From Alloactinosynnema sp. L-07 (lineage in GTDB: Bacteria > Actinomycetota > Actinomycetes > Mycobacteriales > Pseudonocardiaceae): a stretch of 64,000 bases of DNA. The notes beneath the pieces were generated by a model. That model was not told the DNA's origin. It ran no database searches and was given only the letters and a program-made list of their open reading frames with translations. The stretch covers positions 1,054,001-1,118,000 of the forward strand of contig NZ_LN850107.1 in assembly GCF_900070365.1 (NCBI RefSeq), written 5' to 3'. A program made the position numbers and the translations under genes. Of the stretch, positions 1-35,942 are shown piece by piece (the stretch's first letter is position 1; every line of letters starts with the position of its first letter).

Positions 1-192
1 ATTCTGCTCCAGCACGCCGAGGACCTGAAGGAGTGGATGTCGGGGATCTTGGAGTGGCATCGCACCGTCGCGCGTTACGGCGAGGCCGATCTCCGCCGCC
101 ACAGCACGCCCACGCCGCCCACCATCCCGTTCGGACCCACGGGCCTTGGCACCTCGGCGGCCCGTCTGGTCGCCCAGCTCGCCTCGCGCTGA
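1..192 (+). CDS. Terpene cyclase, C-terminal fragment (gene starts before the window)
   Basis: Frame 1 is open from base 1 to a TGA at 190-192, giving 63 residues. The stretch [15 protein letters not shown] matches the C-terminal W-x-x-G-x-x-x-W....RY element of class I bacterial terpene synthases. After it comes a Pro/Thr-rich tail ending in [12 protein letters not shown] (bases 133-168), which is outside the normal cyclase fold. The gene lies 29 bases upstream of a family 2B encapsulin and then a polyprenyl synthase, an arrangement in which terpene cyclases are known encapsulin cargo. The N-terminal and metal-binding motifs are outside the window, so the product cannot be stated. The family call is fairly secure from context; the tail as a targeting peptide is inference. 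Confidence 0.72.
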
Positions 193-221
193 CCCCTTTG
201 CAGAGAACAGATAGGAACGTT

Positions 222-1607
222 GTGACGACGACAGAAACCGATGCCGGTCAGCTCAGCCTCGGCACCGCGGCGGCCAGGAAACTGGCCACCACCACCAAGT
301 CCGTGCCGCAGATGCAGGGCATCTCGCCGCGCTGGCTGCTCAAGATGCTGCCGTGGATCGAGGCCAAGGGCGGCGCGTACCGGGTCAACCGGCGGCTGAG
401 CTACGCCATCGGCGACGGCCGGGTCACCTTCACCAACACCGGTGCCGACGTCCGGGTGGTCCCGCAGGAGCTGTGCGAGCTGCCGGTGCTGCGCGGGTTC
501 GACGACGACGCCGTGCTCTCCTCGCTGGCCGATCGGTTCGTGCAGCGCGAGTTCGCCGCGGGCGAGGTGATCGTGGAGTTCGGCCACGCCGTCGACCACG
601 TGTACCTGATCGCGCACGGCAAGGTGGAGAAGGTCGGCAGCGGCGCCTACGGCGACCCGGTGGTGCTCGGCGGCCTGGCCGACGGCGACTACTTCGGCGA
701 CCGGTCCCTGCTGCGCGCCGACGACATCTGGGAGTTCACCGCCAAGGCGCTGACCAAGTGCATCGTGCTCGCGCTGCCCAGCTCCGTGTTCGCCGAGGTG
801 ACCGAGCGGTCCGACGCGCTGCGGGCGCAGGTCGCCAAGATCCTTGACAGCGCGGGTAAGCCGCAGAACAAGCACGGCGAGGCCGCGATCGATCTGGCCT
901 CCGGGCAGTCGGGCGAGTACGACCTGCCCGGCACGTTCGTCGACTACGAGACCAGCCCGCGCGAGTTCGAGCTGAGCGTCGCCCAGACCGTGCTGCGGGT
1001 GCACTCGCGGGTCGCCGACCTCTACAACGACCCGATGAACCAGGTCGACCAGCAGCTCCGGCTGACCATCGAGGCGCTGCGGGAGCGCCAGGAGCACGAG
1101 CTGATCAACAACCGCGACTTCGGCCTGCTGCACAACGCCGACCTCAAGCAGCGCCTGCACACCCGCACCGGCCCGCCCACCCCGGACGACATGGACGAAC
1201 TGCTGTCGCGCCGCCGCAAGTCCCGCTTCTTCCTGGCCCACCCGCGCACCATCGCCGCGTTCGGCCGCGAGTGCACCGCGCGCGGGCTCTACCCGGAGGG
1301 CACGGTCGTGGACGGCAAGCCCGCGCAGGCGTGGCGCGGGGTGCCGATCCTGCCCTGCGACAAGATCCCGATCACCGACGGCGGCATCAGCTCGATCCTG
1401 GTGCTGCGCACCGGCGAGCAGGACGAGGGCGTGATCGGCCTGCACCGCACGGGCCTGCCCGACGAGTACCAGCCGGGGCTCAACGTGAAGTTCATGGGCG
1501 TCAACGAGAAGGCGATCATCTCCTACCTCGTCAGCGCCTACTACTCCGCCGCCGTGCTCGTCCCCGACGCGCTCGGTGTGCTGGAGAACGTCGAAATCGG
1601 CCGCTGA
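222..1607 (+). CDS. Family 2B encapsulin shell protein 1 (EshA-like, cyclic-nucleotide-binding domain)
   Basis: 461-residue shell protein of the HK97-fold family 2B encapsulins, which form protein nanocompartments around enzymes. The N-arm has the family block [19 protein letters not shown]. Residues about 85-210 form a Crp-like cyclic-nucleotide domain, with FAAGE at 111 and a phosphate-cassette-like YFGDRSLL at 157. The HK97-type core begins near LPGTFVDYE at 235. There is no helix-turn-helix, so it is not a Crp regulator. I chose GTG 222 because a TAGGA lies 6 bases upstream, and because the matching start (GTG after ACGTT or GCGTT) is used by shell protein 3. A longer frame to base 33 overlaps the cyclase gene and is not homologous. 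The next gene starts 1 base after the stop. It is closest in sequence to shell protein 3. Confidence 0.93.
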
Positions 1608-1608
1608 C

Positions 1609-2649
1609 ATGACCACCATCAACGACGCCACCGCGGCCCGGTCGGCCACCGACGTGCTCGCCGCGTGCCGGGACCTCGGCACGCCCGCGCTTCGGGCCGC
1701 GGTGGACTCCATGCCGGGGTCGATGCGGCACATCACCGGCTACCACCTCGGCTGGTGGGACGCCGACGGCGAGCCCACCGACGCCGACAGCGGCAAGGCG
1801 CTGCGGCCCGCGCTGGTGCTGTGCGCGGCCGAGGCCGTCGGCGGTGACCCAGCCGAGGCGATCCCGGCCGCGGTGGCCGTCGAGCTGGTGCACAACTTCT
1901 CGCTGCTGCACGACGACGTGATCGACGGCGACCTGACTCGGCGCCACCGGCCTACCGCGTGGACAGTGTTCGGCACCAGCGCGGCGATCCTGGCCGGGGA
2001 CTCGGCGCTGACCCTGGCGATGGACGTGCTGGCCGCCGCGGGCCACCCGGCCGCCGAACCGGCCACCCGGCTGCTAGCCGCCTGCGTGCAGGAGCTGATC
2101 GACGGCCAGGGCAACGACATCGCCTTCGAGGCCCGGGCCGACGTGACCATGGTGGAGTGCCTGCGCATGGTCGAGGCGAAGACGGGGGCGCTGCTCGCCG
2201 CGTCGTGCACGCTGGGCGCCCTGTTCGGCCGGGCCGACCAGGCCAGGGCGGGCAGGCTCGGCGCGTTCGGCAGACACCTGGGCGTGGCGTTCCAGAGCGC
2301 CGACGACCTGCTTGGGGTCTGGGGTGTGCCCGCGGTGACCGGCAAGCCGGTGCACTCGGATCTGGTCAGCCACAAGAAGTCGCTGCCCGTGGTCGCCGCG
2401 CTCACCTCGGGCACCCAGGCGGGCCGCGACCTGGCCGACCTCTACGCGGGCGACACGCCACTCACCGACGAGCAGGCTCGGCGCGCCGCGGGTCTCATCG
2501 ACCTGGCGGGCGGCCGGACCTGGGCCGAACAGCGTGCCGAGGACGAACTCGCCGCCGCGCTCAACGAATTGGCGATGGCCGATCCCGTGCCCCGAGCCGC
2601 CGCCGAACTGGGCGCGCTGGCTCGACTGGCCACCCGCCGGGATCACTGA
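1609..2649 (+). CDS. Polyprenyl diphosphate synthase, likely encapsulin cargo
   Basis: 346-residue trans-isoprenyl diphosphate synthase that condenses allylic diphosphates with IPP. The first Asp-rich motif is DDVID (102-106, followed by LTRR), and KALRP (63-67) binds IPP. The second Asp-rich position reads DDLLG (232-236), so its last Asp is missing compared with the usual DDxxD. This variant may affect chain length or diphosphate handling. The N-terminus is about 30 residues longer than the catalytic core and holds LGTPALR at 23-29, resembling the tail motif of the upstream cyclase. ATG 1609 follows the shell stop by 1 base, so the two are co-translated. It probably supplies FPP or GGPP to the terpene cyclase at the window edge; product length is unknown. 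Confidence 0.9.
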   Translation: MTTINDATAARSATDVLAACRDLGTPALRAAVDSMPGSMRHITGYHLGWWDADGEPTDADSGKALRPALVLCAAEAVGGDPAEAIPAAVAVELVHNFSLLHDDVIDGDLTRRHRPTAWTVFGTSAAILAGDSALTLAMDVLAAAGHPAAEPATRLLAACVQELIDGQGNDIAFEARADVTMVECLRMVEAKTGALLAASCTLGALFGRADQARAGRLGAFGRHLGVAFQSADDLLGVWGVPAVTGKPVHSDLVSHKKSLPVVAALTSGTQAGRDLADLYAGDTPLTDEQARRAAGLIDLAGGRTWAEQRAEDELAAALNELAMADPVPRAAAELGALARLATRRDH

Positions 2650-2724
2650 CGCGGGAGCCGGCATCCTGCACCCGTTGGCTTGCCAGGAAAGGGAAACAGC
2701 AGTGGACTTACGTGAGGTGGGCCG

Positions 2725-3486
2725 ATGAACATCTATGTGGCGGGTGGCCTGTGGGTCGTGGGCGCGGCGGCGATCGCGGCGCTGGTGGCCTATCTGGTCC
2801 GGCGCATCGGTGAGACCGACGGCATCGTGGAGAACAACGAGGCCGCGGGCCAGGTGTTCACCATCGTCGGCGGCCTGCACGCGGTCCTGCTCGCCTTCGT
2901 CCTGATCTCCCTGTTCGACGGGGTGAGCGCCGCCGAGGACGGTGCCTACCAGGAGGCCGACAGCCTCGTCGCGGCCTACTGGGCCGCCGACTCGCTGCCC
3001 GACCCGATCAAGACCGACGTCCAGGACCTCGCCCGCGCGTACGCCGTGACGGTCGCCGACACGGAGTGGCCCGCCATGGTCGATGGCACTGAGGTGGGCG
3101 GGGACGGCTGGACCCAGCTCGACGACCTGCGCAAGTCCGTGTCGTCGGCGACGGTGTCCGACGAGTGGCAGACCGGCCGCAAAACCGAGGCGGCGAGCCA
3201 ACTCTGGCACGTCTACCAGGCCAGGCAGGCCCGCCTCGACACCGCGGGCAGCGACGGCGTCAGCGGCGTCGTGTGGTTCGCGCTGATCGTCGGCAGCATC
3301 CTGTCGGTCGCCCTGCCGGTGATGTTCGGCGGGCCGCGGCCGGTCACCCACATCATCATCGTGTCGATCCTGGCCGGGACCCTGGCACTGCTGCTTTTCG
3401 CCACCCAGCAACTGCAGAACCCCTATAGCGGCGGCGCCAAGGTGGGTCCCGACGCGTTCCAAACCGCCCAGGAACGGCTGCGGTGA
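2725..3486 (+). CDS. DUF4239 membrane protein
   Basis: 253-residue integral membrane protein of the DUF4239 (bestrophin-like) family. Hydrophobic segments lie at about 4-25, 47-68, 195-213 and 216-236, and enclose an extracytoplasmic-looking helical domain rich in Asp and Ala. The family has no settled biochemical role; channel-like activity has been suggested from remote similarity only. ATG 2725 comes after an 75-base gap from the polyprenyl synthase. The stop overlaps the GTG of the next gene by 4 bases, so these two are a translationally coupled pair. Whether they belong to the encapsulin operon is unclear. Confidence 0.8.
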   Translation: MNIYVAGGLWVVGAAAIAALVAYLVRRIGETDGIVENNEAAGQVFTIVGGLHAVLLAFVLISLFDGVSAAEDGAYQEADSLVAAYWAADSLPDPIKTDVQDLARAYAVTVADTEWPAMVDGTEVGGDGWTQLDDLRKSVSSATVSDEWQTGRKTEAASQLWHVYQARQARLDTAGSDGVSGVVWFALIVGSILSVALPVMFGGPRPVTHIIIVSILAGTLALLLFATQQLQNPYSGGAKVGPDAFQTAQERLR

Positions 3487-4660
3487 ACCGGCGCGGATGG
3501 CGTCTGGTCCTGGTGATCGGGATCAGCGCCGCCGTCCTGTCGGTGGGCCCGACCGCGGCCGCCGCCCCCGCGGCCTGTCTCGCGCTGCAGGTCCAGAGCA
3601 ACGGCCGCGGCCTGTCGACCCTGGTCGCGGTGGACCTTCCCGGCGGCAGGGTGCGCACGATCGCGGAGCTCGGGTTCAAGGTCAACGCCATCGGCACGGC
3701 GGGCGACACCGTCTACGGACTGGCCACCCGCGGCCGATCCGGTCCGTTCCCCGACGGCGGCCACGTGGTCACCATCGCCCGCGACGGCACGACTGTCGAC
3801 AAAGGACCGTTGCGGGGATGGCCGCACCCGCTGCAAGCGCTGGCTGGTACCGTATCCGGGACGCGTTGGTACCTGCGCGACGACACGGGACTGTATGTGG
3901 TCGACGTCGATCCCCGCAGCGCCCGGTATCTGACGGTCGTCTCCCACGTGTGGCTGTGGCCGGGGGGACTGGCCCGCTCGGTCGACGACTTCGACTTCGG
4001 ACCGGATGGCCTGCTCTACGGGGTGGCCGCCCACGGCAAGCTTGTGACGCTCGACCCGCGCACCGGGGAAGTCCGCCCGACCCGCTCACCCAGCGTCGGC
4101 CAGGGCACCAGCTACGGTGCGGCGGCCCGCGCCTCCGACGGGACGCTTTACGTGCTGGCCAACGACTATCGCGGCCACAGCGTCTGGTTCCACGTCACTC
4201 TGCGCCCGCCTGCCGTCGCCGAGTTGGTCAGCAAGCCCACCGTCGACCACACCGACGCCGCGGGCTGCCTGCCCGCCCCGCCGCCGCCGCCACCGCCGCC
4301 AACGGTTCCGGTTCCGGTTCCGCCCACAACGACACCGCCGCGCACCACGACCGCGGCCCCGATCCCGGCACCCCCGCCCGCCACGACTACTCGGCCGCCG
4401 ACGACGACCACTCAGCCACCGACGACGTCACCGACCACGCCACCGCCGACCACCACCGCGCCGACTTCACCGACGCCACCGCCCACGCCTGCCCCGAATC
4501 CGCCCGCGCCGACCCGCAAGCCCTACCGGACCGCCACGCCGACCGCCCCGGCGCCCAAGGACTACCAGACCCGTACCGAGGAGAAACGCCGCTGGGGTCT
4601 GACGGCACTCGTGCTGATCCTGGGCGGAGGCGCCGCCGCCTCCGCCGCCCGCCGTCGCCG

Positions 4661-4664
<4 letters not shown>
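3483..4664 (+). CDS. Secreted, membrane-anchored Pro/Thr-rich protein with a beta-propeller-like ectodomain
   Basis: 393 residues starting at a GTG that overlaps the previous stop (GTGA). Residues 1-28 are a signal peptide ending in AAAAPAA. Residues about 30-265 show repeating G-x-V/L-Y-G-x-A and VDVDPRSARYL-type blades like DUF6923 or YVTN propellers. Residues about 265-355 are a low-complexity Pro/Thr linker. A C-terminal hydrophobic helix (about 370-388) followed by RRRR acts as an anchor. This resembles surface proteins of actinomycetes that span the cell wall. Binding partner unknown. It is convergent with the hydrolase gene below, with a 4-base overlap of the two ends. Confidence 0.65.
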
Positions 4665-5275
<611 letters not shown>

Positions 5276-5385
5276 CGGGCACCTCGTCCACTCGGTTCCA
5301 GGGCACGATCAACCAACCACCCCGCCACCGATCGGGCAAGGCGCCGCTCAGGTGGTCTGGTCTGCTCCCGGTGGTGGCAGGCTCG

Positions 5386-7437: not shown

Positions 7438-7492
7438 CCGGCCATCATCAACCGGGCCGCCGCGATCCGCGCGCCGGAACGATCTCAGCAGG

Positions 7493-7615
7493 TCAGGCCG
7501 GGTGTGATGGGCTTGAGGTCGACCAGGTAGGCGTCGACGGCCTGCCCGCCTTGCGCAGCGCCCCGACCACCGCGAACCGCATGTCCTCGTCGTCCTCGAC
7601 CACCAGTACCCGCAC
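7493..7615 (-). pseudogene. Response-regulator N-terminal remnant
   Basis: A 40-codon minus-strand frame from GTG 7615 begins [20 protein letters not shown], the phosphoacceptor-domain start of an OmpR-type response regulator with its acidic pocket. The homology stops after about 24 residues. A different reading frame then continues through [17 protein letters not shown] to a TGA near 7488, which looks like the 3' end of another gene. It therefore reads as two gene ends joined by a deletion. No sensor kinase is adjacent. The response-regulator start is clear; the identity of the second fragment is unknown. Confidence 0.55.
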
Positions 7616-7656
7616 GGACCGCAAGGATAGCGGCTGTCCTCATCGGACAGTTCGGG

Positions 7657-8787: not shown

Positions 8788-8907
8788 CGCGGCCCTCCGA
8801 CCAAGTGGTGCCAGGGACCAAGGGATACCCCACCATGGCACGCCGTCAAACGGGACCGCGCCACCCTGAGGTTCGAATCAGCCGGTCACCACGGGATTCG
8901 CACCGAG

Positions 8908-8953
8908 CGGACGGACGCCGTCGCACACGGTGATGTGCGACGGCGTCCGTCCG
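8908..8953. terminator. Perfect 20-bp hairpin, probable tctCBA terminator
   Basis: A perfect 20-bp inverted repeat (8908-8927 with 8934-8953) with a 6-base loop. It lies after the minus-strand tctA gene and before the minus-strand ligase gene. No T-run follows, as is common for actinomycete terminators. Confidence 0.65.
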
Positions 8954-8964
8954 GGCAGGGAACT

Positions 8965-21884: not shown

Positions 21885-23096
21885 CTAGAGCACGCGGACC
21901 TCGGGTACGTACATGATCCATTTGCCGCCCGCGGCGCGGAACTCCTGTTCCTTGGCGGTGATCTCCTCGGCGTGGTTCCACGCGAACAGGAGCGCGTAGT
22001 CCGGGTACGGGTCGGCGAAGGCCGTCGGTGGCCGGACCGGGAGGTGGACGCCTGGGGTCAGCCTGCCTTGCTTGGCCGGGGTGGTGTCGCACACGAACGA
22101 GACCAGGTCCGGGCCTATTCCGCAGAAGTTGGTGACCGCTGAACTCTTGGCGGTGGCGCCGTAGCCGACGATCGTCTTGCCGTCCGCTTTCAAGGTCCTG
22201 AGCAGGTCGATGAGGTTGTCGCGGATCCGCGTGACCGAGGCGGCGAAGTCGGTGAGCGCCTTGAGTTCCGCTTGGCCGCCTTCTTCGGCGAGCAGTCGGG
22301 CGACCGCTGGTGTCGGGGTGCGGGCTCCCGTCCGGGCGAGGGTGTAGCGCATTCCTCCGCCGTAGGCCGCCAATCGCTCGACATCGACCAAGTCGAACCC
22401 GAACCGCTCGGCCATCGCTCGGACGGACCGGACCGAGAACAGGAAGAAGCGCTCGTTGCAGACCTGGTCGAAGGACGTCTTCTCGATCACGTCCCACAGG
22501 TAGGGGTCCTCGAAGACGAAGACACCGTCCGGACTCAGCAGGGCGTCCACACCGCCAAGCAGCGATGCCACGTAAGGGATCTGACTGATGGTGTCGGTCG
22601 AGTAGATGACGTCGGCGGCACCTTCGGTCGCGAAGACGTCCGCCGCGGTGGACTCCTCGAAGAAGTCGGGCCGGACGCGGACGCCGCGTTCCCTGGCGAG
22701 TCGGGCCACCCCGCCCGCGGGCTCGAAGCCCAGGTGACGGATGCCGGACTCGGCCAGGGTGCGCAGCAGGGAGCCGTCGTTGCAGCCGATCTCGACGAAG
22801 AACGCGTCCGGCTTGGTGAGTTCGGTGGTGAGCAGGCCCAGCGCGGTCCGGGTGAAGTGTTCTGCCATCACCGACGACCCGGAGGAGTGATAGGGGTAGT
22901 CGTCGTGGAACACCCGTTCGCGCTGGACCTCTTCGGTGAGCTGGACCATGGTGCAGGTGGTGCACCGGCCGATGGCGAGGCGGTCGAAGTACTCCCCGTC
23001 GATGTCCTCGGGGAGCAGGAAGGCGTCGGCGAGGGGTTGGCGTCCGAGGTCCAGGAACTCCTCGACGGTGCCGCCGCACACCCGGCATTCGGTCAC
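21885..23096 (-). CDS. NDP-hexose C-methyltransferase family protein with an altered active site
   Basis: 403-residue protein of the TylCIII/NovU/EvaC class I methyltransferase family. An N-terminal zinc site (Cys4, Cys7, Cys45, Cys48), the SAM site VEIGCNDGS (101-109) and the C-terminal half GYGATAKSS are present. The catalytic block that reads Q/H-EH-LxYY in family members is CNERFFLF here (213-220): the His is Arg and the Tyr pair is Phe. It may act on a different sugar, or be inactive. GTG 23096 starts 17 bases after the upstream methyltransferase. It is the last gene of the minus-strand sugar operon. Confidence 0.82.
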   Translation of the reverse strand: MTECRVCGGTVEEFLDLGRQPLADAFLLPEDIDGEYFDRLAIGRCTTCTMVQLTEEVQRERVFHDDYPYHSSGSSVMAEHFTRTALGLLTTELTKPDAFFVEIGCNDGSLLRTLAESGIRHLGFEPAGGVARLARERGVRVRPDFFEESTAADVFATEGAADVIYSTDTISQIPYVASLLGGVDALLSPDGVFVFEDPYLWDVIEKTSFDQVCNERFFLFSVRSVRAMAERFGFDLVDVERLAAYGGGMRYTLARTGARTPTPAVARLLAEEGGQAELKALTDFAASVTRIRDNLIDLLRTLKADGKTIVGYGATAKSSAVTNFCGIGPDLVSFVCDTTPAKQGRLTPGVHLPVRPPTAFADPYPDYALLFAWNHAEEITAKEQEFRAAGGKWIMYVPEVRVL

Positions 23097-23112
23097 TGGT
23101 GCCAGCCCTTCG

Positions 23113-24351
23113 TCAGATCTCGGAGACCGTCGGCAGGGGGACGACGAACTTGCCGCCCCGCGCGAGGAACTCCTGCTCGCGTTCGACGAAACCGTCGCGG
23201 TAGGCCCAGGGGAGGATCAGCAGCTGGTCGGGCTTGAGGGCCTTGGCGTCCTCCTCGGAGACGATGGGGATGCCGGAGCCGGGGGTGACGCAGCCGTGCT
23301 TCTCCGGGCTGACCTCGCCGATGCACGGCAGGTCGTCGGTGGTGACCCCGCAGTACTGCAGCGTCACGTTGCCCTTGGTCGATGCCCCGTATCCCAGGGT
23401 CAGCTTGCCCGCCGCTTTCGAGTCGTCGAGGAAGGCGCGCAGTTCGTCGCGGTGGTCGGTGACGCGGCGGGCGAAGGTCTCGTAGGTGGCCATCGAGTCC
23501 AGCCGGAGTTCGGCCTCGCGCTCGCGGGCCCGCTCGATCGCCGCGGTGTCGATCTTGTGGCGGCTGGGGTCCTTGACCAGGGTGAGGCACAGGCTGCCGC
23601 CGTTGGCCTCGGTGAGCTCGGCCGAGGACACGGTGAGGCCCACGCGGTCGGCCATCCACTCGATCTGGCGCAGCGTGTAGTACTCCAGGTGTTCCTGGCA
23701 GACCGCGTCGTAGGCCAAGGCCTCGATCGTGGAGGCCAGGTCGGTCATCTCGACCATCCACACGCCGTCGTCGGTGAGGATGTCGCGCACGTCGGACATG
23801 AACCCGGTCGGGTCGGGCAGGTCGTAGTACATCGCGATGGAGGTGACGATCTTGGCTTTGCGGTCGCCGAACTTCTCGGCGTAGACGTCCTTGGAGAAGA
23901 AGTCCGGGATCAGGTCGACACTGTCCGGGTAGTACTGGCGCCACTTGTCGCCGGTCGGGTCGATGCCGACCCTGGTGAGGCCCTCGGTGCGGTAGCCCTG
24001 CAGCAGCGTCGAGTCGTTGCTGCCGATGTCGACGACCACGTCGCCCGCGTCGAGGTCGACCAGGCCGGTGAGGGTGGCGACCTTGTCGTGCAGATAGTTG
24101 ATCATGAACGGGCGGATGCCGGAGCGGTATCCATAGTGGACGCCGTACATGAGGGAGAGGTCGGCGGTGTGCTTGAGCTGCACGAGCCCGCAGCCGTCGG
24201 GGGAGCACTTGACCACTTCCAGCGGCGCGGTCGGCACCTCCACGCCCGGCTTGGGGAAGATGCCGGTCAGCGCCTGGGTGCCCAGGTCGAGCACGGGCAG
24301 CAGGGTCCGGTTGCCGCAGATGCGGCACGCGGTGCACTCGATGACGTTCAT
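23113..24351 (-). CDS. NDP-hexose C-methyltransferase, TylCIII/EvaC type
   Basis: 412-residue SAM-dependent methyltransferase that adds a branch methyl to a keto-sugar nucleotide, usually at C3. Zinc cysteines are at 6, 9, 12, 49 and 54, the SAM motif VVVDIGSNDSTLL is near 107-118, and the catalytic block CQEHLEYY (218-225) is intact. The C-terminal domain (GYGASTKGN) is as in TcaB9. It is paralogous to the next gene but keeps all key residues, so it is the better candidate for the working C-methyltransferase. Confidence 0.9.
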   Translation of the reverse strand: MNVIECTACRICGNRTLLPVLDLGTQALTGIFPKPGVEVPTAPLEVVKCSPDGCGLVQLKHTADLSLMYGVHYGYRSGIRPFMINYLHDKVATLTGLVDLDAGDVVVDIGSNDSTLLQGYRTEGLTRVGIDPTGDKWRQYYPDSVDLIPDFFSKDVYAEKFGDRKAKIVTSIAMYYDLPDPTGFMSDVRDILTDDGVWMVEMTDLASTIEALAYDAVCQEHLEYYTLRQIEWMADRVGLTVSSAELTEANGGSLCLTLVKDPSRHKIDTAAIERAREREAELRLDSMATYETFARRVTDHRDELRAFLDDSKAAGKLTLGYGASTKGNVTLQYCGVTTDDLPCIGEVSPEKHGCVTPGSGIPIVSEEDAKALKPDQLLILPWAYRDGFVEREQEFLARGGKFVVPLPTVSEI

Positions 24352-24364
24352 GGTGCCCTCCAGG

Positions 24365-25663
24365 TCAGGGACGGTGTTCGGCGGTCAGCTTCTCCAGCGC
24401 GGGCACGACGTCGTTCGGGCTCGGGGTGGCCCGCACCTCGGTGCGCAGCCGGGCGGCGTTCGCGGCGTGGGACGGGTCGTCCAGGACGCGCTTGAGGCTG
24501 TCGCGCAGCACGTCGGCGGTGAACGTGGTGGAGTTGCCCGCGTAGACCCCGGCGCCGCGCTCCTCCAGCCCGTGCGCGATGGCGACCGGGCCCCACCACT
24601 TCTCGACCTTGAAGTCGTTGGGCACGATGATCTGCGGGACGCCGTACTCCAGCGCCGAGGCCAGGCTGCCGACGCCGCCCTCGTGGACGAACGCCGAGCA
24701 CGACGGCAGCAGCGAGGTGAACGGGACGAAGTCGACGGCCCGGACGTTGTCTGGCAGCGTCGCCGACCCGAGCTGCTGGGCGTTGAGCGTGGCGATCACC
24801 TCGGCGTCGAGGTCGGCCACCGCGTCGAGCAGGTCCTGGGCGGACGACCCGCCGCTGAGGGTGGCGTCCCGGTGCGAGATGCCCTGGGTGATGCAGACCC
24901 GCTTGCGCGTCGGCGGCTCGTACACCCACCGCGGGGTGGCGGCGGGACCGTTGAACGGCACCCCGCGCACCGGGACGTAGTGCACGCCATCGGGCTGCCC
25001 GATCCAGGACGGCGCGGGCGAGATCGTCCACTTCCCGAGCACCACGGACTCGTCGAACTCGCACCCGTAGCGGCCCAGGATCGGCTCCAGCCAGTCCCGC
25101 ATCGGGTCGCCCGCGGTGTCGAACCGCGGCCCGCAAGCCGCGCGCAGCTGCCCGATCCGGTCGACGTTGAGCGTCATCCGGGCGTGGGCCGCGCCGACGA
25201 CCCTGGCCGCGACCGCGCCGGGCAGGGCGGTCGGGTCGGTGATCACCAGATCCGGCTTCCACTGGCGGGCGAAGCCCACCAGGTCGTCGAAGGTCGACTC
25301 CGGGAAGAACGCCATCCGCACGCCGACGGTGAGGTCCTCCAGCTCGATATGCGGATCGCCCCAGCCGAAGTCGCCCTGGACCGACTTGCCGGTGCTCAGC
25401 CCCCGCGGGTCGCAGGGGCCCGCGGGGTCGCCCGGCGTCATCCGGATCGGGTCGTCGCTGGGCACCCCGCCCGCCATCATCGCTTCCAGGTTGAGCATGT
25501 CGCCGATCGCGACGCCGGGCAGCCCGGTGCGCGCGATCGCGTCGGCCAGATCCGGCGGGCCCGCGATGACGACCTCGTGGCCCGCGGTGCGCAGCGCCCA
25601 CGCCAGCGGAACCTGTACGTACAGGTGTGCCCTGAAAGGGTTGGTAACGAAGAGAACCCGCAT
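24365..25663 (-). CDS. Glycosyltransferase family 1 (deoxysugar transferase, EryCIII/DesVII-like)
   Basis: 432-residue GT-B enzyme expected to move the deoxysugar made by the flanking genes to an acceptor. The N-terminal acceptor domain starts MRVLFVTNPFRAHLY. The donor domain holds FVHEGGVGSLASALEYGVPQI, which replaces the usual HHGGxGT. It resembles activator-dependent glycosyltransferases of macrolide and anthracycline pathways, but no DesVIII-type helper gene is nearby. No polyketide or peptide synthase is in the window, so the acceptor is unknown. Confidence 0.87.
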   Translation of the reverse strand: MRVLFVTNPFRAHLYVQVPLAWALRTAGHEVVIAGPPDLADAIARTGLPGVAIGDMLNLEAMMAGGVPSDDPIRMTPGDPAGPCDPRGLSTGKSVQGDFGWGDPHIELEDLTVGVRMAFFPESTFDDLVGFARQWKPDLVITDPTALPGAVAARVVGAAHARMTLNVDRIGQLRAACGPRFDTAGDPMRDWLEPILGRYGCEFDESVVLGKWTISPAPSWIGQPDGVHYVPVRGVPFNGPAATPRWVYEPPTRKRVCITQGISHRDATLSGGSSAQDLLDAVADLDAEVIATLNAQQLGSATLPDNVRAVDFVPFTSLLPSCSAFVHEGGVGSLASALEYGVPQIIVPNDFKVEKWWGPVAIAHGLEERGAGVYAGNSTTFTADVLRDSLKRVLDDPSHAANAARLRTEVRATPSPNDVVPALEKLTAEHRP

Positions 25664-25691
25664 GACAGTCCTTCCGGCTAGATTGAGATCG

Positions 25692-26813
25692 TCAGCCGCG
25701 GCCGAGGATGTCGCGCAGGGCGGTGATGATCTTTTCCTGGAGGTCTTCCGGCAGCGTCGGGTACATCGGCAGGGAGAAGATCTCGTCGGCGACCCGCTCG
25801 GTCACCGGGAGCTCGCCGACGGAGTGGCCAAGGTGGGCGAATCCGGTCATGGTGTGGATCGGCCACGGGTAGCTGATGTTGAATTCGAAGTCGAGTTCCT
25901 TGAGCGCCTTGAGGATCTCGTCCCGCGCGGGGTGGCGCACCACGTAGATGTAGTAGACGTGGTCGTTGCCGTCGGCGATCTGGGGCAGGACCAGCTCGGT
26001 GTCGCCGAGTCCGTCGGCATAGCGCTGGGCCACCGCCCGGCGGTCGGCGATGTAGGTGTCGAGCCTGCGCAGCTTGCGGCGCAGGATCTCCGCGTGCACC
26101 TCGTCGAGTCGGGAGTTGTGGCCGGGCGTGGTGACGACGTAGTACTGCTTCTCCATGCCGTAGCGCCGCAGCTTGCGCAGCCGCTGCTCGGCCTCGTCGT
26201 CGGAGGTGATCACCGCGCCCGCGTCGCCGTACGCGCCGAGGACCTTGGTGGGGTAGAAGGAGAACGCGGCCGCGGCACCGGTCGTCCCCGCCATCCGGCC
26301 GTTTCGCCGCGCGCCGTGCGCCTGGGCGCAGTCCTCCAGGATCTTGAGGCCGTGCTGGGCCGCCAGCCGCTCCAGCGGGTCGAGGTCCACGCACTGCCCG
26401 TAGAGGTGCACCGGGAGCAGGCACTTGGTGCGGTCGGTGATCACCCCGGCCACCTGGTCGGTGTCCATGAGGTACGTGTCGGGATCGATGTCGACGAACA
26501 CCGGCTTGGCGCCCACGGCGTCGATGGCCAGCACGGTCGGCGCCGCGGTGTTGGAGACGGTGACGACCTCGTCGCCGGGGCCGACCCCGATCGCCTGGAG
26601 ACCGAGCTTGACCGCGTTGGTGCCGTTGTCGACCCCGACGCAGTGCGCGACGCCGTGGTAGGCGGCGAACTCGTTCTCGAAGCCCCGCACGCTCTCACCG
26701 AGGATGAGCTGGTCGGAGCGGAACACGGTGTCGACCGCGTCGAGGATGTCCTCGCGCTCGTTCTCGTACTCCCGCCGGTGGTCCCAAACGTAGGTGGTCA
26801 TCGGTGCCGACAT
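25692..26813 (-). CDS. DegT/DnrJ/EryC1/StrS-family sugar aminotransferase
   Basis: 373-residue PLP enzyme that aminates a keto-sugar nucleotide, most likely at C3 as in DesV, TylB and EvaB. The PLP lysine is in [16 protein letters not shown] and the Asp of [10 protein letters not shown] contacts the cofactor. [13 protein letters not shown] and the C-terminal SYPWPIHTM are typical of the 3-aminotransferases. The first ATG (26813) is almost on top of an AAAGGA; ATG 26801 is an alternative. The upstream gene makes the 2-deoxy-3-keto substrate. Confidence 0.88.
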
Positions 26814-26822
26814 TCCTTTCGG

Positions 26823-28214
26823 TCACAGGTTGTTCAGGCAGAGGAGCAGGGTGCGGGCCTCGATGCTGAGGTTGTAGCTGTGTCGTTGCAGCGCCATCAG
26901 CTGCTCGGCGGTGGCCCAGAGGAAGTCCGGCGGCACTTCGAGCGGGAAGTCGTCGTCCTGCACCACGAGGTAGCGGGTCTCGGCGTGCAGGAACCGACCG
27001 CCCTCTTCGGACTGGACGACGTCATAGCGGACGCCTTTTCGGGCCGACAGAAGGTAGTCGAGGAACTCCGGGCGACGGTCGGCCGGGGTGTGGGGGTAGT
27101 CCTCCATCATGAACCGCACCGTGGGACCGATCTCCACGGTGTCGCGGTTGCCCGGCAGGACCTCGGCCCGCACCAGCGCGTGCGGCATCCCGCCGATGTG
27201 CCGGACGACCAGCCCGGCCAGGCCGACGCCATGCGGTGCCAACAGGGGCTGCTGCCAGCTGTGGACCTCGCGGGTCTCGGCGTGGGTCCGCACCCCCACG
27301 ATACTGAAGTTTCCGTGCCCCGCAGGGGAAATCCGGTCGGCGTCGCGCCGCCACCCGACCACGGAGTTCATCGGGACCAGGCGGGCGGACAGCTCGTGCT
27401 CGCTCTTGCGGCCGGTGAACCAACTGAGCACCTCGGTCATGGTGTGCCTGCCGCCCGACTCCGCGCTGCCGAACGTGCCCCCGCCCGCCGGGCCCGCGAT
27501 GGGCAGGCACCCGAGCACCGTCCGGGCGTCCATGTTGATGACGTTGGGCTGCTGAAGCAGCAGGCGGATCTGGCCGAGCGTCAGCCAGCAAAAGTCCTCG
27601 TGGACCGGCACGTCGTCGGTGACCTCGACCACGACGTTTCGGTTGCGCTTCAAGTGGAACCAGGAACCCTGCTCCGACTGGAGGATGTCGACCACCGTGC
27701 GGCCACGACCTGGTTCCCGGAAGTAGTCGACATAGCGCGCGGGCCTGCCGCCGTGCACGCCAAGGTAGTTGCTCGACGTCGCCTGGACCGTCGGCGACAG
27801 CTGCACCATATCGACGTTCCCGGGCTCCATCTTGGCCTGCAACAGGAAGTGCAGGACGCCGTCGAACTCCTTGGCGATGATGCCGAGGATGGCGATGTCA
27901 CGCTGGACCAGGATGGGTTGCCACCACTCGCCGACGTGGCCATGGTTTGTGGTGACGTGCAGTCCTTCGACGGTGTAGAACCGGCCGGTGTGGTGTTCGA
28001 GGTTCCCGGTGTCGGCGGTGCGCCAGCCCGTTGGCTCGGCCAGTTCGTCCAGCGTGATCACGGTGCTCTCGAACGGCTGGTCACGCTTGCCCTTGATCCA
28101 CCCGTCGATGTCGACGGGGCTCACCCGAGACTCGGTCGTCCGCGCCGAGGCGGTGACGCGGTCGGCGACCTCGACGGCCGGGCTCGGGTCGAGCTGAGAG
28201 AGTCGCGCAGGCAC
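26823..28214 (-). CDS. NDP-hexose 2,3-dehydratase, EvaA type
   Basis: 463-residue protein with two tandem repeats of the dehydratase fold (about 30-240 and 255-460). Each has a W-WQPI/WQQPLL segment, an E-PGN-D core (MEPGNVDMVQLSPTVQ and VLPGNRDTVEIGPTVR) and an SEQGSWFH or SEEGGRFLH block. These enzymes remove water from NDP-4-keto-6-deoxyglucose to begin 2,6-dideoxysugar synthesis. It is the first gene of the minus-strand operon dehydratase-aminotransferase-glycosyltransferase-methyltransferases. GTG 28214 is preceded by GGGAG. A 289-base gap to the divergent reductase gene holds the promoters; I see no strong motif in it. Confidence 0.9.
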   Translation of the reverse strand: MPARLSQLDPSPAVEVADRVTASARTTESRVSPVDIDGWIKGKRDQPFESTVITLDELAEPTGWRTADTGNLEHHTGRFYTVEGLHVTTNHGHVGEWWQPILVQRDIAILGIIAKEFDGVLHFLLQAKMEPGNVDMVQLSPTVQATSSNYLGVHGGRPARYVDYFREPGRGRTVVDILQSEQGSWFHLKRNRNVVVEVTDDVPVHEDFCWLTLGQIRLLLQQPNVINMDARTVLGCLPIAGPAGGGTFGSAESGGRHTMTEVLSWFTGRKSEHELSARLVPMNSVVGWRRDADRISPAGHGNFSIVGVRTHAETREVHSWQQPLLAPHGVGLAGLVVRHIGGMPHALVRAEVLPGNRDTVEIGPTVRFMMEDYPHTPADRRPEFLDYLLSARKGVRYDVVQSEEGGRFLHAETRYLVVQDDDFPLEVPPDFLWATAEQLMALQRHSYNLSIEARTLLLCLNNL

Positions 28215-28503
28215 CGGAGGGCTCCCCTTGGGGTCGTGGGACTCCGATCATCGTCGTACGGCAGGTTTTGCCTTGCACCTTCTGGATTGCGGTGCGGTCG
28301 GCGCGACCAGCGCATACCCGATCGGCCCTGCGCCACGGGAAAGCGCGGGCAGGGCATCACCGGAGATGCGCGGCTCATGTGCCGTTGACAGGCTGGTCGA
28401 GCGCCGCCCCGTCACATTCCGAGAATGGGTGACCCATGAATTCGTTGTCCGGTCAGGGGAAAATGTCCGCGAAGGTCGGCACCGGGACGGGGAGGTAGCG
28501 GTC

Positions 28504-29508: not shown

Positions 29509-29625
29509 CCCACCACGCGCCTCCCAAGGACAACATGCCCAGGTCCGCGCTTCGCATAGGACAGCTTTCGCCCTCGCTGGTTTCGCTGACGTGAATTCCC
29601 CGCCCACCGGTGGTTGACTGGCGGC

Positions 29626-30651: not shown

Positions 30652-30677
30652 CAGCGTGGCGCTGTCAGCGGTGCAGG
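30639..30677. terminator. Bidirectional terminator hairpin overlapping the esterase stop
   Basis: A perfect 18-bp stem (30639-30656 with 30660-30677) and a 3-base loop (TGG). It includes the esterase TGA and lies 15 bases from the end of the convergent terpene cyclase gene, so it can serve both. Confidence 0.85.
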
Positions 30678-30691
30678 TGGATGGCTGGGTG

Positions 30692-31930
30692 CTACGCGGC
30701 GCTGGTGGCGGCGTTCTCGGCGTGGTAGCGCTTGGTGGTGGCGTGCCATTCCCGGCTGCCGCCGCACCAGGCCCACGTGTCGGCCAGGAAGCGCTGCAAC
30801 ATCGGTGTGCCCTTCAGGCTGAGCGCGGCCGCCTCGGCGACGAAGCGCTTCATCAGCTCGTTGTGGATCTCCACGGTGCGCTTGACCGCCTGCCGCGGCG
30901 TGCAGCCCTCCTCCTCCATGAGCGCGATCGGCAGGCTGATGTCGTTGTCGGCCTCCTTGCTCATCGAGTGCAGGTCGTTGATCAGCACGGCGGCGGTCCC
31001 GGCCATGGTGAACGCGCGGCGCACCGCCGGGTCGAAGAACTCCTGGGCGGGCAGCTCGTACCCCGCCACCGCGTCGACCAGGAGCATCGGCGGCAGATAG
31101 CTGTTGTGATGGCGGTGCATCAGGTACTCCCAGACCGCGGGCCGCCTGCCGGTGTTGCGCCAGCTCGCGTTCTGGCCCAGCGCGGTGAACAGGATCGCCA
31201 TCTGGTGCTGGAACCGGCCCATTTGCGGCGCGGTGGTGTACTTCGCCAGGTGTTCCATGCCGGTGCGGAAGGCGTGGGCGATCGGTTCCTCCTTGATGAA
31301 CCGATCGAGTTCGTGCTGGTAGCGCTGGGGGAGCACGACCGGGTCGACCACGCCGTAGAGCACCCCGAGCCGCGCGGCGGCGAGCTGAGGGTCGGCGCCC
31401 ATCTCCTCTTCGTCGAGGTAGTAGTCGTCGGCGGCCCACTCGGCCACAACGACCTTGGTGGCAGCCAGCAGCCGATCCGGGTCGTCGGTGCCGGGGTGGG
31501 TGAGCATGACCAGCCTGCCGAACCCGCAGGCCCGCAGGTGGTCTTCGCGCCCGGGATAGATCCCGACCTGCCCGGCCCACTCGACCATCCGGTCGTTGAC
31601 CTCCTCGCCGAGCGCGGGGTTGTCCCGCACCGGGCCGGGGCAGAACAGCTCCGGGATCGCGTCATCGTCGTCTGCGGGCTCGGGATCCTCGGCTTCCTCG
31701 CGCAGCCTGGCCGCGAGAAGCAATGGGAGCAGGACCGCCGACATGCCCAGCGAGGTCGGGTTCTCGATCGGCGGGAACACAGTGGACGGCGTTCGCGCCA
31801 GACCGGCCCCGGCGAGCAGCGCGGCGAGTTCGCCCGCCGGGGCCGTGTCCATGTCCGCGAGCACGGCCGCCGCTTGCCTGGCCAGGTCGTCGGTCGCGAG
31901 GGGGGCGAACAGACGGGACAACACGGACAT
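30692..31930 (-). CDS. 2-methylisoborneol synthase-like C11 terpene cyclase, likely encapsulin cargo
   Basis: 412-residue class I terpene cyclase expected to cyclise 2-methyl-GPP. The first metal motif is DDYYLDEEEMG, and the second is NDLHSMSKE, which fits the NSE consensus. The N-terminal about 110 residues precede the catalytic fold, are Ala/Pro/Asp-rich, and include NPTSLGMSAVLL at 57-68. The equivalent region of 2B cargo is thought to be disordered and to direct loading. The gene follows the GPP methyltransferase by 11 bases. 2-Methylisoborneol is the default product, but the metal motif differs from the DDCYCED form I recall for Streptomyces synthases, so 2-methylenebornane or another C11 product is possible. 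Confidence 0.88.
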   Translation of the reverse strand: MSVLSRLFAPLATDDLARQAAAVLADMDTAPAGELAALLAGAGLARTPSTVFPPIENPTSLGMSAVLLPLLLAARLREEAEDPEPADDDDAIPELFCPGPVRDNPALGEEVNDRMVEWAGQVGIYPGREDHLRACGFGRLVMLTHPGTDDPDRLLAATKVVVAEWAADDYYLDEEEMGADPQLAAARLGVLYGVVDPVVLPQRYQHELDRFIKEEPIAHAFRTGMEHLAKYTTAPQMGRFQHQMAILFTALGQNASWRNTGRRPAVWEYLMHRHHNSYLPPMLLVDAVAGYELPAQEFFDPAVRRAFTMAGTAAVLINDLHSMSKEADNDISLPIALMEEEGCTPRQAVKRTVEIHNELMKRFVAEAAALSLKGTPMLQRFLADTWAWCGGSREWHATTKRYHAENAATSAA

Positions 31931-31941
31931 GGTCGGCGGCC

Positions 31942-32814
31942 TCAGATCCGGTCGGCGGCGATGAGGAGGTAGTGGAAGCTGCCTTCGCGATACGCGGTGA
32001 GGAACGGGTCTTCGATTCCGGTGGCGACCGAGGACTGGGCCCGCAGTTCCCAGTAGGGGATCGTGGCGGCGGTCAGGTCGACGACATTGATGGGCACGAA
32101 GTTGTTGCGGGCCAAGGCTTCGAAGTACTTGCTGCGCGGATGGATGTTGCAGGTGTAGTGCTGGTCGATCTGGCTGACCGCCTTGGACCGCCCGCCGGTG
32201 ACGTCGTTGTAGCAGCCGGTGATGCAGACGTAGCGGCCACCGAACGGGATCAGCCGGGCGAACTCGGCGTAGAGGTCGTCCAGGTCGACGTACATGGTCG
32301 TCTCGTTGGTCCAGATGCCGTTCATCGACCCGGTTTCGAAGCCGGTGTCGAGCATGTTGCGGAAGTGGAACCGGACCTGGTCGGCGACGCCGCGGTCGAC
32401 GGCCTGGGAATTGGCGAACTCGACCTGGGACTCCGAGATCGAGACGCCGTCGACCCGGCAGCCGAACCGCTTGTTGGCCATGAACGACGTGCCGCCCCGG
32501 CCGGACCCGCCGTCCATGAGCCCGCCGGTCGCCGGGATCTCGCCGAGGTGGTCGAGCAGGACGTCGGCCTGAGCGGTCTCCAGGCGGTGCATCTCGGCGA
32601 TGATCGCCTGCTCGCGACCCTCAACCGGGCCGGTGAGCACCGCGGGGTCGTAGTCGCCGAGGCCGTAGTGGTGGTGGTAGAGGCCGTCGACGTCGCCCAG
32701 CCGCAGGTTCACCGGGTCCTTCTCGTTGTTCCAGTACGTCGCGACCGAGCGCTGGTAGTCGCTGCGCAGCACCGGCTGGGCGGGGGCATCGGAGAAAGAC
32801 CGCGTCGTGGTCAT
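31942..32814 (-). CDS. Geranyl diphosphate 2-C-methyltransferase
   Basis: 290-residue SAM methyltransferase that converts GPP to 2-methyl-GPP, the substrate of the next gene. Family markers are YHHHYGLGDYD (about 47-57), the SAM motif LMDGGSGRGG (about 97-106) and DQHYTCNIHPRSKYF. ATG 32814 is chosen because AAGGAG lies about 10 bases upstream; the longer TTG frame would start on the ribosome binding site. It lacks the LGxxA motif seen in the three prenyl/terpene enzymes, so it may remain outside the shell. Confidence 0.94.
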   Translation of the reverse strand: MTTTRSFSDAPAQPVLRSDYQRSVATYWNNEKDPVNLRLGDVDGLYHHHYGLGDYDPAVLTGPVEGREQAIIAEMHRLETAQADVLLDHLGEIPATGGLMDGGSGRGGTSFMANKRFGCRVDGVSISESQVEFANSQAVDRGVADQVRFHFRNMLDTGFETGSMNGIWTNETTMYVDLDDLYAEFARLIPFGGRYVCITGCYNDVTGGRSKAVSQIDQHYTCNIHPRSKYFEALARNNFVPINVVDLTAATIPYWELRAQSSVATGIEDPFLTAYREGSFHYLLIAADRI

Positions 32815-32866
32815 TTTGGGGAACTCCTTCAACGGTGGTGCGGATGTTGGATCGATGACCCGTGGG

Positions 32867-34270
32867 TCAGTCGGCGCGGCCGAGTTCGACGTCTTCGAGG
32901 ATGCCCAGCGCGTCGGGCATCAGGACGGCGGCGGAGTAGTACGCGGTGACCAGGTAGGAGGTGATCGCCTTGGCGTCGGTGCCCATGTTCCGCACGGACA
33001 GGCCAGGGCGGTACTCGTCGGGCAGCCCGGTCTGGTGCAGGCCGATCACGCCCTGGCGGTCCTCACCGGTGCGCAGCAGCATGATCGAGGTGGTGCCGCG
33101 GTCGCTGATCGGGATCTTGCCGCAGGGCAGCACCGGCACACCGCGCCACGCGGGCACCATCTGGCCGTTCATGTCGACGTGCTGCGGGTAGACCCCGCGC
33201 CTGCTGCACGCCTGGCCGAACGCGGCGATGGCCTTGGGGTGGGCCAGGAACGCCGTGGGTTCCTTCCACACCGTGGCCAGCAGCTCGTCCATGTCGTCGG
33301 GGGTGGGCGGGCCGCCGCGGGTGTGGATGCGCTGGCCGAGATCGGCGTTGTGCAGCAGGCCGAACTCGCGGTTGTTCACCAGTTCCCGTTCCTGGCGCTC
33401 GCGAAGTGCCTCGATGGTCAGGCGCAACTGCTGCTCGGCCTGGTTCATCGGGTCGTTGTAGAGGTCGGAGACCCTGGTGTGCACGCGCAGCACGGTCTGG
33501 GCGACGCTGAGCTCGTACTCCCGCGGCGTGAGTTCGTAGTCGACGAACGTGCCGGGCAGCTCGGGCTCACCTCGGTGGCCCGCGGCCAGTTCGATGGCGG
33601 CCTCGCCGTGCTCGTCCTGGGCGCCTGCCGTGAACTCCCGGTGCCACGCCAGCTGCGCGCGCAGGGCCTCCGAACGCGCGTTCAGCGCCAGGAAGTCGGC
33701 CTTGGACAGGATCAGCGCGGTGCAGCGGGTGGCGGTGTGCGCGGTGTACGCCCACGTCGCCTCGGCCGTCGACAGGATCTCGTCGCCGATGTGATCGCCG
33801 TCGGCCAGCACGCCCAGCGTCGTTCGGTCGCCGTAGTCGCCCGTGGCCAGCTTGTGCACCTTGCCGTGGGCGATGAGGACGAGCCGGTCGACCGACCCAC
33901 CCTGCTCCACAATGGACTCGCCTGCGGCGTACTCGCGTTGCTCGAAGCGGTTGGCCAGCTCGGCGAGCACCTCCGCGTCGTCGAATCCGCGCAGCGGGGC
34001 CAGTTCGCGCAGCTCCTCGGGGATCACCCGGACCTCGGCCCCGGTGGTGACGAACTCGACGCGCCCGTCGCCGACAGTGTGGGTGCGGCGGCGGTTGACC
34101 CGGTAGGCGCCGCCCTTGGCCTCCACCCACGGCAGGGTGCGCAGCAGCCAGCGGGAGCTGATGCCCTGCATCTGGGGAACCGACTTGGTGGTCGTCGCGA
34201 GATTTCGCGCCGCCGCCGTGCTCAGACTCAATTGTGTTTGTTCGGTTTCCGGGTCAAGAATGTCGGTCAC
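32867..34270 (-). CDS. Family 2B encapsulin shell protein 2 (2-MIB locus)
   Basis: 467-residue EshA-like shell protein heading the operon shell-methyltransferase-cyclase. The N-arm [19 protein letters not shown] and the HK97-type core from about LPGTFVDYE are conserved. The nucleotide-domain cassette is HIGDEILS (160-167), which keeps Gly-Asp/Glu. In the core it differs from shells 1 and 3 ([17 protein letters not shown] in place of [17 protein letters not shown]), so it is the most distant of the three. GTG 34270 has AGGAG 10 bases upstream. In Streptomyces the same three functions cluster, with the cyclase before the methyltransferase. Confidence 0.93.
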
Positions 34271-34553
34271 CGGCGAATACTCCTATCGAACTGTGAGGGT
34301 CGACGAGAAAGCCGATATCGAAATAGGCCTAACCGGCTGGGAGGAATTCCCGGCCGTGTCGGCGAGCGGCCCCGGTTTGGGGCGACAGCACCGAAACTAG
34401 CACTGATGATCTTCGAGGACTAGTCACTCGACAGGGTGATGGATCGAGCCGGAACCCACTTTCGTGTCATGGTCACGGCGCGGTGTGAATGTTTTAATTC
34501 CGTTGGCTATTCACCCCGGCCGCAGGTAGTACCCAACGGATTGGTGATGCGTT
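34271..34553. promoter_or_regulatory. Divergent promoter region between shell genes 2 and 3
   Basis: 283 bases with locally low GC content (for example GAATGTTTTAATTCCG near 34488) between two head-to-head encapsulin genes. Both promoters must be here, which could allow shared control of two shell subunits. I could not identify a confident operator or -10/-35 pair. Confidence 0.45.
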
Positions 34554-35942
34554 GTGACCGTGACAGAACCCGACGTCAGCCTGAATGGGCACGCTCAGCT
34601 CAGCCTGAGCACCAAGGCTGCCCGCAACCTGGCCACGACGACCAAGTCCGAGCCGCAGATGCAAGGCATCTCGCCGCGCTGGCTGCTGAAGATGCTGCCG
34701 TGGGTGACCGTCGCGGGCGGCACGTATCGCGTGAACCAGCGGCTGACCTACACCGTCGGCGACGGCAGTGTCGAGTTCACCAACGTCGGCGCGCGGGTCC
34801 GGGTGATCCCGCAGGAATTGCGCGAGTTGCCGCTGCTGCACGACTTCGACGACGAGGAGACCCTGGCCGCGCTGGCCGACCGGTTCGTGCAGCAGGAGTT
34901 CGCCGCGGGCGAGGTCATCATCCGGGCGGGGGATCCGGCCGACCGGATCTGCCTGATCGCGCACGGCAGGGCGGACAAGCTGGGCACCGGCATGTACGAC
35001 GACGATGTCGTGCTGGGTGTGCTGGCCGACGGCGACCATGTCAGCCATCAGAACGGCGATACCTGGCCGTTCAGCGTGACGGCCACGACCGCGTGCACGG
35101 TCCTGGTCCTGGCGGAGCGGGCGCTTGACGAGCTCGCCCAGCGGTCGGAACCGCTGCGGGCGCACCTGGAAGCGTTCCGGTCCAGGCCGGTGCTGTCGCA
35201 GAACAAGTACGGTGAGGCCGAGATCGCGCTGTCGGCGGGCCACGCCGGGGAGGCGGAGCTGCCGGGCACCTTCGTCGACTACGAGACCTCGCCGAGGGAG
35301 TACGAACTCAGCGTCGCCCAGACGGTCCTGCGGGTCCACTCCCGGGTCGCAGACCTCTACAACCAGCCGATGAACCAGACCGAGCAGCAGTTGCGGCTCA
35401 CCGTGGAGGCGCTGCGCGAGCGCCAGGAACGCGAGCTGATCAACAACCGCGAGTTCGGCCTGCTGCACAACGCCGATCTCCGCCAGCGCATCCACACCCG
35501 CACCGGCCCACCCACCCCCGACGACATGGACGAACTGCTGTGCAGGCGCCGCAAGTCCCGGTTCTTTCTGGCGCATCCGCGCACCATCGCCGCCTTCGGC
35601 CGCGAGTGCACCAAGCGCGGCATCTACCCCACCACCACAGAGGTCGACGGCACCCCGGTGATGGCGTGGCGAGGCGTGCCGGTGCTGCCCTGCGACAAGA
35701 TCCCGATCACCAACACCAACACCAGTTCCATCCTGGTGATGCGCACCGGCGAGGAGGATCAAGGGGTCATCGGTCTGACCCCGGCCGCCCTGCCCGACGA
35801 GTTCGAGCCCGGCTTGAACATCCGCTTCATGGGCATCAACGAGAAGGCGGTGATCTCCTACCTGGTCAGTGCCTACTTCTCGGCGGCGGTGCTCGTCCCC
35901 GACGCCCTCGGCGTCCTGGACAACGTCGAACTCGGTCGCTGA
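34554..35942 (+). CDS. Family 2B encapsulin shell protein 3 (no adjacent cargo gene)
   Basis: 462-residue EshA-like shell protein transcribed alone, divergent from shell 2. Its C-terminal core is nearly the same as that of shell 1 ([32 protein letters not shown]). The nucleotide domain is unusual: where shells 1 and 2 have 13 residues between LADGD and the next Trp, this one has 9 (HVSHQNGDT, from residue 162). The Gly-Asp/Glu of the phosphate cassette is displaced or lost, so ligand binding is probably weakened or changed. GTG 34554. It may co-assemble with shell 1 or 2 into a mixed compartment; this is inference. Confidence 0.92.

Follow-up and report, generated by a model that had tools for sequence, protein, structure and literature searches.

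The closest described relatives of the genes considered here are the two-component family 2B encapsulins of Streptomyces lydicus, whose two kinds of subunits, Enc1 and Enc2, form mixed T=1 shells whose composition varies (Dutcher, Andreas, Giessen 2025; PMC12407261). In that paper, Enc1 and Enc2 are defined by two motifs, the first of which (motif 1) reads TVWK in Sl-Enc1 and RRRK in Sl-Enc2, and the two classes form separate lineages across operons. We have analysed a stretch of 64,000 nucleotides from Alloactinosynnema sp. L-07 (hereafter, the window), corresponding to positions 1,054,001-1,118,000 of a 7.4-Mb single contig (genome G000). Together with the DNA immediately upstream, it carries four family 2B shell genes and their terpene enzymes. 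We conclude, with a probability of roughly 0.8, that this locus is made up of two family 2B encapsulin systems, both of the two-component kind: set A, of the type with a terpene cyclase and a polyprenyl synthase (TC/PT), and set B, a rarer divergent TC form.

The S. lydicus system (PMC12407261) shares with our locus the motif 1 classes (VWK versus RRR), the insertion of a cyclic-nucleotide-binding-like domain (CBD) and the pairing of the genes. The TC/PT operon order given there is that of set A, and in both cases the Enc1s form a lineage apart from the Enc2s of their own operons. The S. lydicus system differs by its putative xylulose kinase cargo and its single pair, whereas here set B is divergent and two pairs lie within 39 kb. 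The family 2B operons of Andreas and Giessen (2021; PMC8346489) also include both kinds of cyclases, a C-methyltransferase, PT and GPTGLGT-type tags; in contrast, the 2-methylisoborneol synthase (2-MIBS) of our locus has a degenerate tag, NPTSLGMS, and the passages of that paper that were consulted make no mention of side-by-side or divergent pairs. More generally, we found no description of side-by-side Enc1/Enc2 pairs, of divergent pairs or of Enc2 acting in trans in the literature searched, in which subscription journals were partly covered. Andreas and Giessen are said to have described in 2024 an encapsulated 2-methylisoborneol (2-MIB) synthase of Streptomyces griseus with a family 2B shell, as a single-shell system; cargo and kind of shell would be the same as in set B, which differs by having two shells.

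A genome-wide search with the family 2B shell model (NCBIfam NF041163, cut-off 400 bits) retrieved four shells, all inside 39 kb. Three are open genes of the window (shells 1, 2 and 3, with 780.5, 764.2 and 773.6 bits), and the fourth (789.8 bits) is located 2 kb upstream of it, at G000:C1:1050508-1051977. A previous sequence-only reading, restricted to the window, had placed the first three correctly, shell 2 lying on the minus strand, and its count of three has to be raised to four. Each of the three window shells has a match to Pfam PF19307, preceded at about residues 109-197 by a match to PF00027 that corresponds to the CBD insertion. The features of the two sets in the window are the following.

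1..192, plus strand: last 63 codons and stop of a geosmin-synthase-like two-domain terpene cyclase, whose full 737-aa gene (L005:15979-18192) lies mostly outside the window
~133-165, plus strand: C-terminal tag of this cyclase, 11 residues, with the GP(T/S)GLGT pattern
222..1607, plus strand: shell 1, family 2B encapsulin of Enc2 type (NF041163; motif SRRRKS), Enc2 of set A
1576..2649, plus strand: polyprenyl synthase, encapsulin cargo type 4, set A; probable start ATG 1609, just past the stop of shell 1
30692..31930, minus strand: 2-MIBS-like terpene cyclase, set B cargo; tag-like NPTSLGMS at 31739-31762
31942..32832, minus strand: geranyl diphosphate (GPP) 2-C-methyltransferase (GPPMT), set B; probable start ATG 32814
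32867..34270, minus strand: shell 2, family 2B encapsulin of Enc1 type (NF041163; motif ATVWKE), Enc1 of set B
34271..34553, no strand: intergenic region of 283 bp between the divergent shells 2 and 3, with the short blocks GACAGGGTGA and GTGATGCGTTGTGACC in common with the same region of G001, another genome of the genus
34554..35942, plus strand: shell 3, family 2B encapsulin of Enc2 type (NF041163; motif CRRRKS), set B Enc2, on whose own side no cargo gene was found

Motif 1 divides the four shells into one Enc1 and one Enc2 per set: ALVWKE (fourth gene, Enc1) and SRRRKS (shell 1, Enc2) in set A, ATVWKE (shell 2, Enc1) and CRRRKS (shell 3, Enc2) in set B. This motif was bimodal among the 233 non-redundant shells that we aligned after dropping 11 partial ones, with 110 Enc1, 122 Enc2 and a single shell of neither class. 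In the HK97-domain tree of the same 233 rows, the four shells fell on the sides of the best Enc1/Enc2 split that match their motifs (support 96). The closest PDB sequence of shell 3 was 9bix (655.7 bits), a chain with the Sl-Enc2 motifs, and that of shell 2 was 9bje (656.9 bits), a chain with the Sl-Enc1 motifs. Shells 1 and 3 were the most alike of the three window shells (70.1% versus 65.8 and 63.9%), as the sequence-only reading had noticed, but only the HK97 domain (79.4%) showed this likeness, the CBDs (50.8%) being no closer than those of other pairs (50.0-56.7%). They are closest because both are of Enc2 type, and shell 2 is therefore the most likely partner for shell 3. The exchangeable set of three subunits that had been proposed turned out to be two Enc2s and one Enc1 which, once the fourth gene is added, make two Enc1/Enc2 pairs accompanied by separate terpene enzymes. 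Mixed 2B shells, put forward as going beyond the known pattern, do exist, but as the two-component system already published (PMC12407261). Informal inspection led us to reject recent gene conversion between these four genes (longest identical runs of 27-44 nt, third-position identity of 0.33-0.88 by stretch).

The gene order of set A is Enc1 (the fourth gene), the geosmin-synthase-like cyclase, Enc2 (shell 1) and the polyprenyl synthase, so that shell 1 does sit between a terpene cyclase and a polyprenyl synthase. This fits the TC/PT type, with TC between Enc1 and Enc2 and PT directly after Enc2 (L005 14508-19998; window 1-2649), and the exact order was found in 19 of 126 loci, set A included. 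In set B, Enc2 (shell 3), which has no cargo gene that we could find on its side, is divergent from Enc1 (shell 2), which heads the GPP methyltransferase and 2-MIBS genes; here the earlier description was accurate. The two shell genes are 3.6 kb apart, start to start, in set A and 0.28 kb apart in set B, both below the 10 kb used as the two-component criterion. Three prenyl/terpene enzymes passed their models, namely the polyprenyl synthase (NF041169, 480.3 bits versus a cut-off of 450), the GPP methyltransferase (NF041943, 520 versus 400) and the 2-MIBS-like cyclase (NF041167, 504.1 versus 400); the cyclase before shell 1, also named in the sequence-only reading, is incomplete in the window.

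The geosmin-synthase-like cyclase carries GPTGLGT between its two cyclase domains and a second copy near its C-terminus. Both matches of the exact GP(T/S)GLGT pattern in the whole genome were inside this protein, and no other tagged cargo was recovered by this search, which is blind to degenerate tags of the NPTSLGMS sort. A second geosmin synthase in the genome was rejected, the sole other match being half-length at 31% identity. At the tag position of the 2-MIBS, P-x-x-LGM-(S/A)-A was kept in ten orthologues (76-87% identical). In the corresponding 11-row alignment, mean conservation was 0.89 in the tag segment versus 0.55 and 0.57 alongside, where gaps count low; the catalytic part averaged 0.88.

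By analogy with S. lydicus, each Enc1 would most likely co-assemble with an Enc2 into 60-subunit T=1 shells of variable composition. The set A shell would house the two-tagged cyclase, possibly together with the polyprenyl synthase, while the set B shell would enclose the 2-MIB synthase; precursors would enter and the volatile would exit via pores partly covered by the CBDs. Both sets probably make earthy-smelling terpenes, the predicted products and loading following, like co-assembly, from the likeness to the S. lydicus system and to that of S. griseus.

Set B was also recovered in G001, where the DNA matched at 85.6% over Enc1-GPPMT-2-MIBS and at 82.5% over Enc2, and shells 2 and 3 each paired with their own G001 counterpart in the HK97 tree (supports 100 and 99). 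It occupies a non-syntenic place in that genome, about 7 kb on either flank matching nothing in the window or in the preceding 18 kb, and the other G001 pair is a plain Enc1-Enc2-PT. All 16 genomes of the genus had a 2B shell above cut-off: 13 had two, G015 had one, at the end of a contig, and four were present in G000 and G001 only. The clustering of three shells was present in 1 of these 16 genomes; the expectation that other genomes would keep the trio was not borne out, and we rejected the clustering as a conserved unit on this count and on the non-syntenic position of set B in G001. In a draw of 200 genomes from the family, 131 had a 2B shell, 12 of them with at least two sets, complete or nearly so. 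Both sets were on one contig in six of these 12, and within 50 kb only in G000, the others being 0.4-2 Mb apart or more; the remaining six have their sets on separate contigs. Random placement would give the observed set-to-set distance of 33 kb with a probability of 0.9% in one genome and of about 10% at least once among 12 genomes; the closeness of sets A and B is therefore notable, not compelling, and is probably incidental. The 28 kb separating them encode transporters, a histidine kinase, deoxysugar genes and others, with no evident link to either set among the genes scanned.

Several observations weigh against reading the locus as two two-component systems. The geosmin-synthase-like cyclase reached 1169.5 bits on NF041168, below the curated cut-off of 1200, and the tag of the 2-MIBS departs from GPTGLGT. 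No two of the four shells are less alike than shells 2 and 3 (63.9% identity); shell 2 favours 9bje over 9bix only narrowly (656.9 versus 651.2 bits); and the Enc1/Enc2 split of the tree misplaces 15 of 233 shells, cyanobacterial Enc2s among these, several deep branches being poorly supported. Finally, neighbouring Enc1 and Enc2 genes were tandem in 81 cases and divergent in two across the 126 loci, and these two are set B in G000 and in G001; common expression of the set B shells is therefore not guaranteed.

The other neighbouring shells of the 126 loci comprised four tandem pairs with one unclassed member, one tandem Enc2/Enc2 and one divergent Enc1/Enc1. Enc1 and Enc2 were on one strand in all 40 two-shell family genomes examined, the Enc2 of G070 being in pieces. 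Set A has the single-operon order with Enc1 upstream of Enc2, and set B is divergent, like one other locus. No sigma-70-like promoter was found between the divergent shells 2 and 3, by a search that is uninformative for this organism. In G136, a different arrangement (L181:4813-16680) places three shells within 10 kb, with an Enc1 and its PT running divergently from a complete Enc1-cyclase-Enc2-PT (two Enc1s, one Enc2).

Among the alternatives, the one that survives best, although we consider it unlikely, holds that the four subunits form one exchangeable pool in which any Enc1 can go with any Enc2, so that the cell would make a graded range of mixed shells enclosing the two terpene pathways; this extends the idea of the sequence-only reading. 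In S. lydicus, every kind of contact between protomers is tolerated (PMC12407261), and CBD identity across sets (56.7 and 54.8%) matches that within sets (52.4 and 50.8%). Moreover, a single pair brackets cyclase, 2-MIBS, GPPMT and PT in L159-L161, L163, L182, L183, L246, L249 and L107. The order is Enc1-cyclase-2-MIBS-GPPMT-Enc2-PT in four loci, with the inner two genes swapped in two more; the swapped order (GPPMT/2-MIBS) also occurs in L246 and L249, and L107 has an additional 2-MIBS-like gene. The 11 genomes with a lone Enc1-type gene (see below), which hold a complete pair as well, point in the same direction. Such a pool is nevertheless at odds with the lack of conservation of the A and B arrangement, with the location of set B elsewhere in G001, between flanks without DNA common to the window, and with the resemblance between partners. 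In 93 same-locus Enc1/Enc2 pairs, identity was 74.0% in the HK97 domain and 55.4% in the CBD, versus 69.6 and 48.9% in unmatched pairs, which mix distant species; none of 2000 permutations reached this. We also compared same-pair and cross-pair identities in nine genomes with two complete pairs, three of the 12 multi-set genomes (G110, G136, G145) having been dropped because one set was without a complete classed Enc1 or Enc2. Same-pair HK97 identity was higher in eight of the nine (median 2.6 points, Wilcoxon p 0.008), whereas the CBDs showed no clear difference (median 1.6 points, p 0.31). In G000 itself, same minus cross was +1.1 points for HK97 and -4.2 points for the CBD, and two of the nine genomes (G185, G205) carry a pair apparently homogenised by gene conversion. 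These identities provide modest evidence for matched pairs in general, with which some mixing in G000 would be compatible.

Gene conversion or exchange was suggested at other loci. At L173:6288-11322 of Actinopolyspora mzabensis (L048 is the same DNA), an Enc1-TC-Enc2-PT-like operon has the Enc2 motif in both of its shells, whose CBDs are 100% and whose HK97 domains are 96.8% identical; the Enc1 seems to have been overwritten by the Enc2 via gene conversion. Within-pair identity was also raised in L175 and L178, sister operons of L173. In Kutzneria viridogrisea, the Enc1s of separate loci (L145 and L170) have CBDs 100% and HK97 domains 96.2% identical, a sign of recent exchange or duplication.

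Beyond the two pairs of G000, sharing of shells across loci is plausible from gene content. We found an Enc1-type gene without a neighbouring Enc2 partner in 11 genomes (G021, G074, G098, G099, G102, G122, G136, G138, G152, G179, G200). It was unbroken and beside prenyl/terpene genes in nine of them, the exceptions being G122, without the searched cargo genes nearby, and G179, whose copy is broken; that of G136 sits divergently beside a complete set. The variants LVSKEP (G074, G102) and NTVYKS (G021) were counted as Enc1-like by resemblance. These genomes were picked for at least three shells, so that a complete pair alongside the lone gene, found in all 11, was likely in advance. If the inability of Enc1 to form shells alone, known from S. 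lydicus only, is general, lone-Enc1 loci must borrow Enc2 from elsewhere. Eight of the ten genomes with 2-MIBS orthologues (L146-L153) had no shell within the 18-kb stretch around the methyltransferase and the 2-MIBS, and all eight had shells elsewhere; they belong to two genera and are therefore not eight independent cases. The less similar 2-MIBS of G021 (61%) and G023 (64%) likewise had no shell in the stretch fetched around them. A cell-wide Enc1/Enc2 pool in the family, in which a lone Enc1 would use a distant Enc2 and shell-less tagged 2-MIB synthases would load into the shells of other loci, is a tentative proposal that we regard as doubtful.

Less probable again are separate homomeric particles, one per cargo, with the extra shell genes redundant. 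Single-component 2B systems exist, and 13 of the 126 loci look like one Enc2-type shell with PT, in an Enc2-seeded set with some loci cut by contig ends; an Enc2-type sequence was the query behind the 80 named loci, so that their excess of lone Enc2 genes means little. However, Sl-Enc1 alone gives no shells (PMC12407261). An Enc1-type gene was present in 74 of the 80 classified family genomes, a non-random sample of those with listed positions, a 2-MIBS or several shells, and it is accompanied by an Enc2-type gene in 73 of the 74, the exception, G015, ending at a contig edge. It is highly improbable that shell 3 is a functionless duplicate, dispensable or in decay: no cargo gene was found on its own side, where the next downstream gene encodes a ScyD/ScyE-family protein, and the DNA downstream of it is not common to G001, but its frame is open with strong third-position G+C (0.92) and its G001 counterpart is 81.6% identical in the same divergent position.

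Other genes of the window may be mentioned briefly. A bestrophin-like membrane protein and a DUF6923 protein are encoded at 2725-4664, on the same strand as the polyprenyl synthase and 3' of it. The region 21885-28214 comprises two C-methyltransferases, an EryCIII-like glycosyltransferase, an aminotransferase and an NDP-hexose 2,3-dehydratase, with no obvious aglycone pathway among the scanned genes. The region 48790-56833 is a mycofactocin locus, with an NDMA-dependent alcohol dehydrogenase, a Fis-type regulator, an aldehyde dehydrogenase, MftB, the radical SAM maturase and an MftE-like peptidase.

With the locus read as two two-component systems, the false novelty of a three-subunit set gives way to a precise case open to testing, a single genome that holds two complete Enc1/Enc2 pairs for two odorant pathways. 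Such a genome can tell whether two-component encapsulins stay with their partners or mix between loci; a single pair like that of S. lydicus does not allow this. Should the cell-wide pool be true, the make-up of the compartments of G000, and the enzymes that share a particle, would follow the relative expression of the two loci. The lone Enc1 genes and the shell-less tagged 2-MIB synthases suggest that cargo and shell need not adjoin, and cargo assignment based on gene neighbourhood may therefore miss cases.

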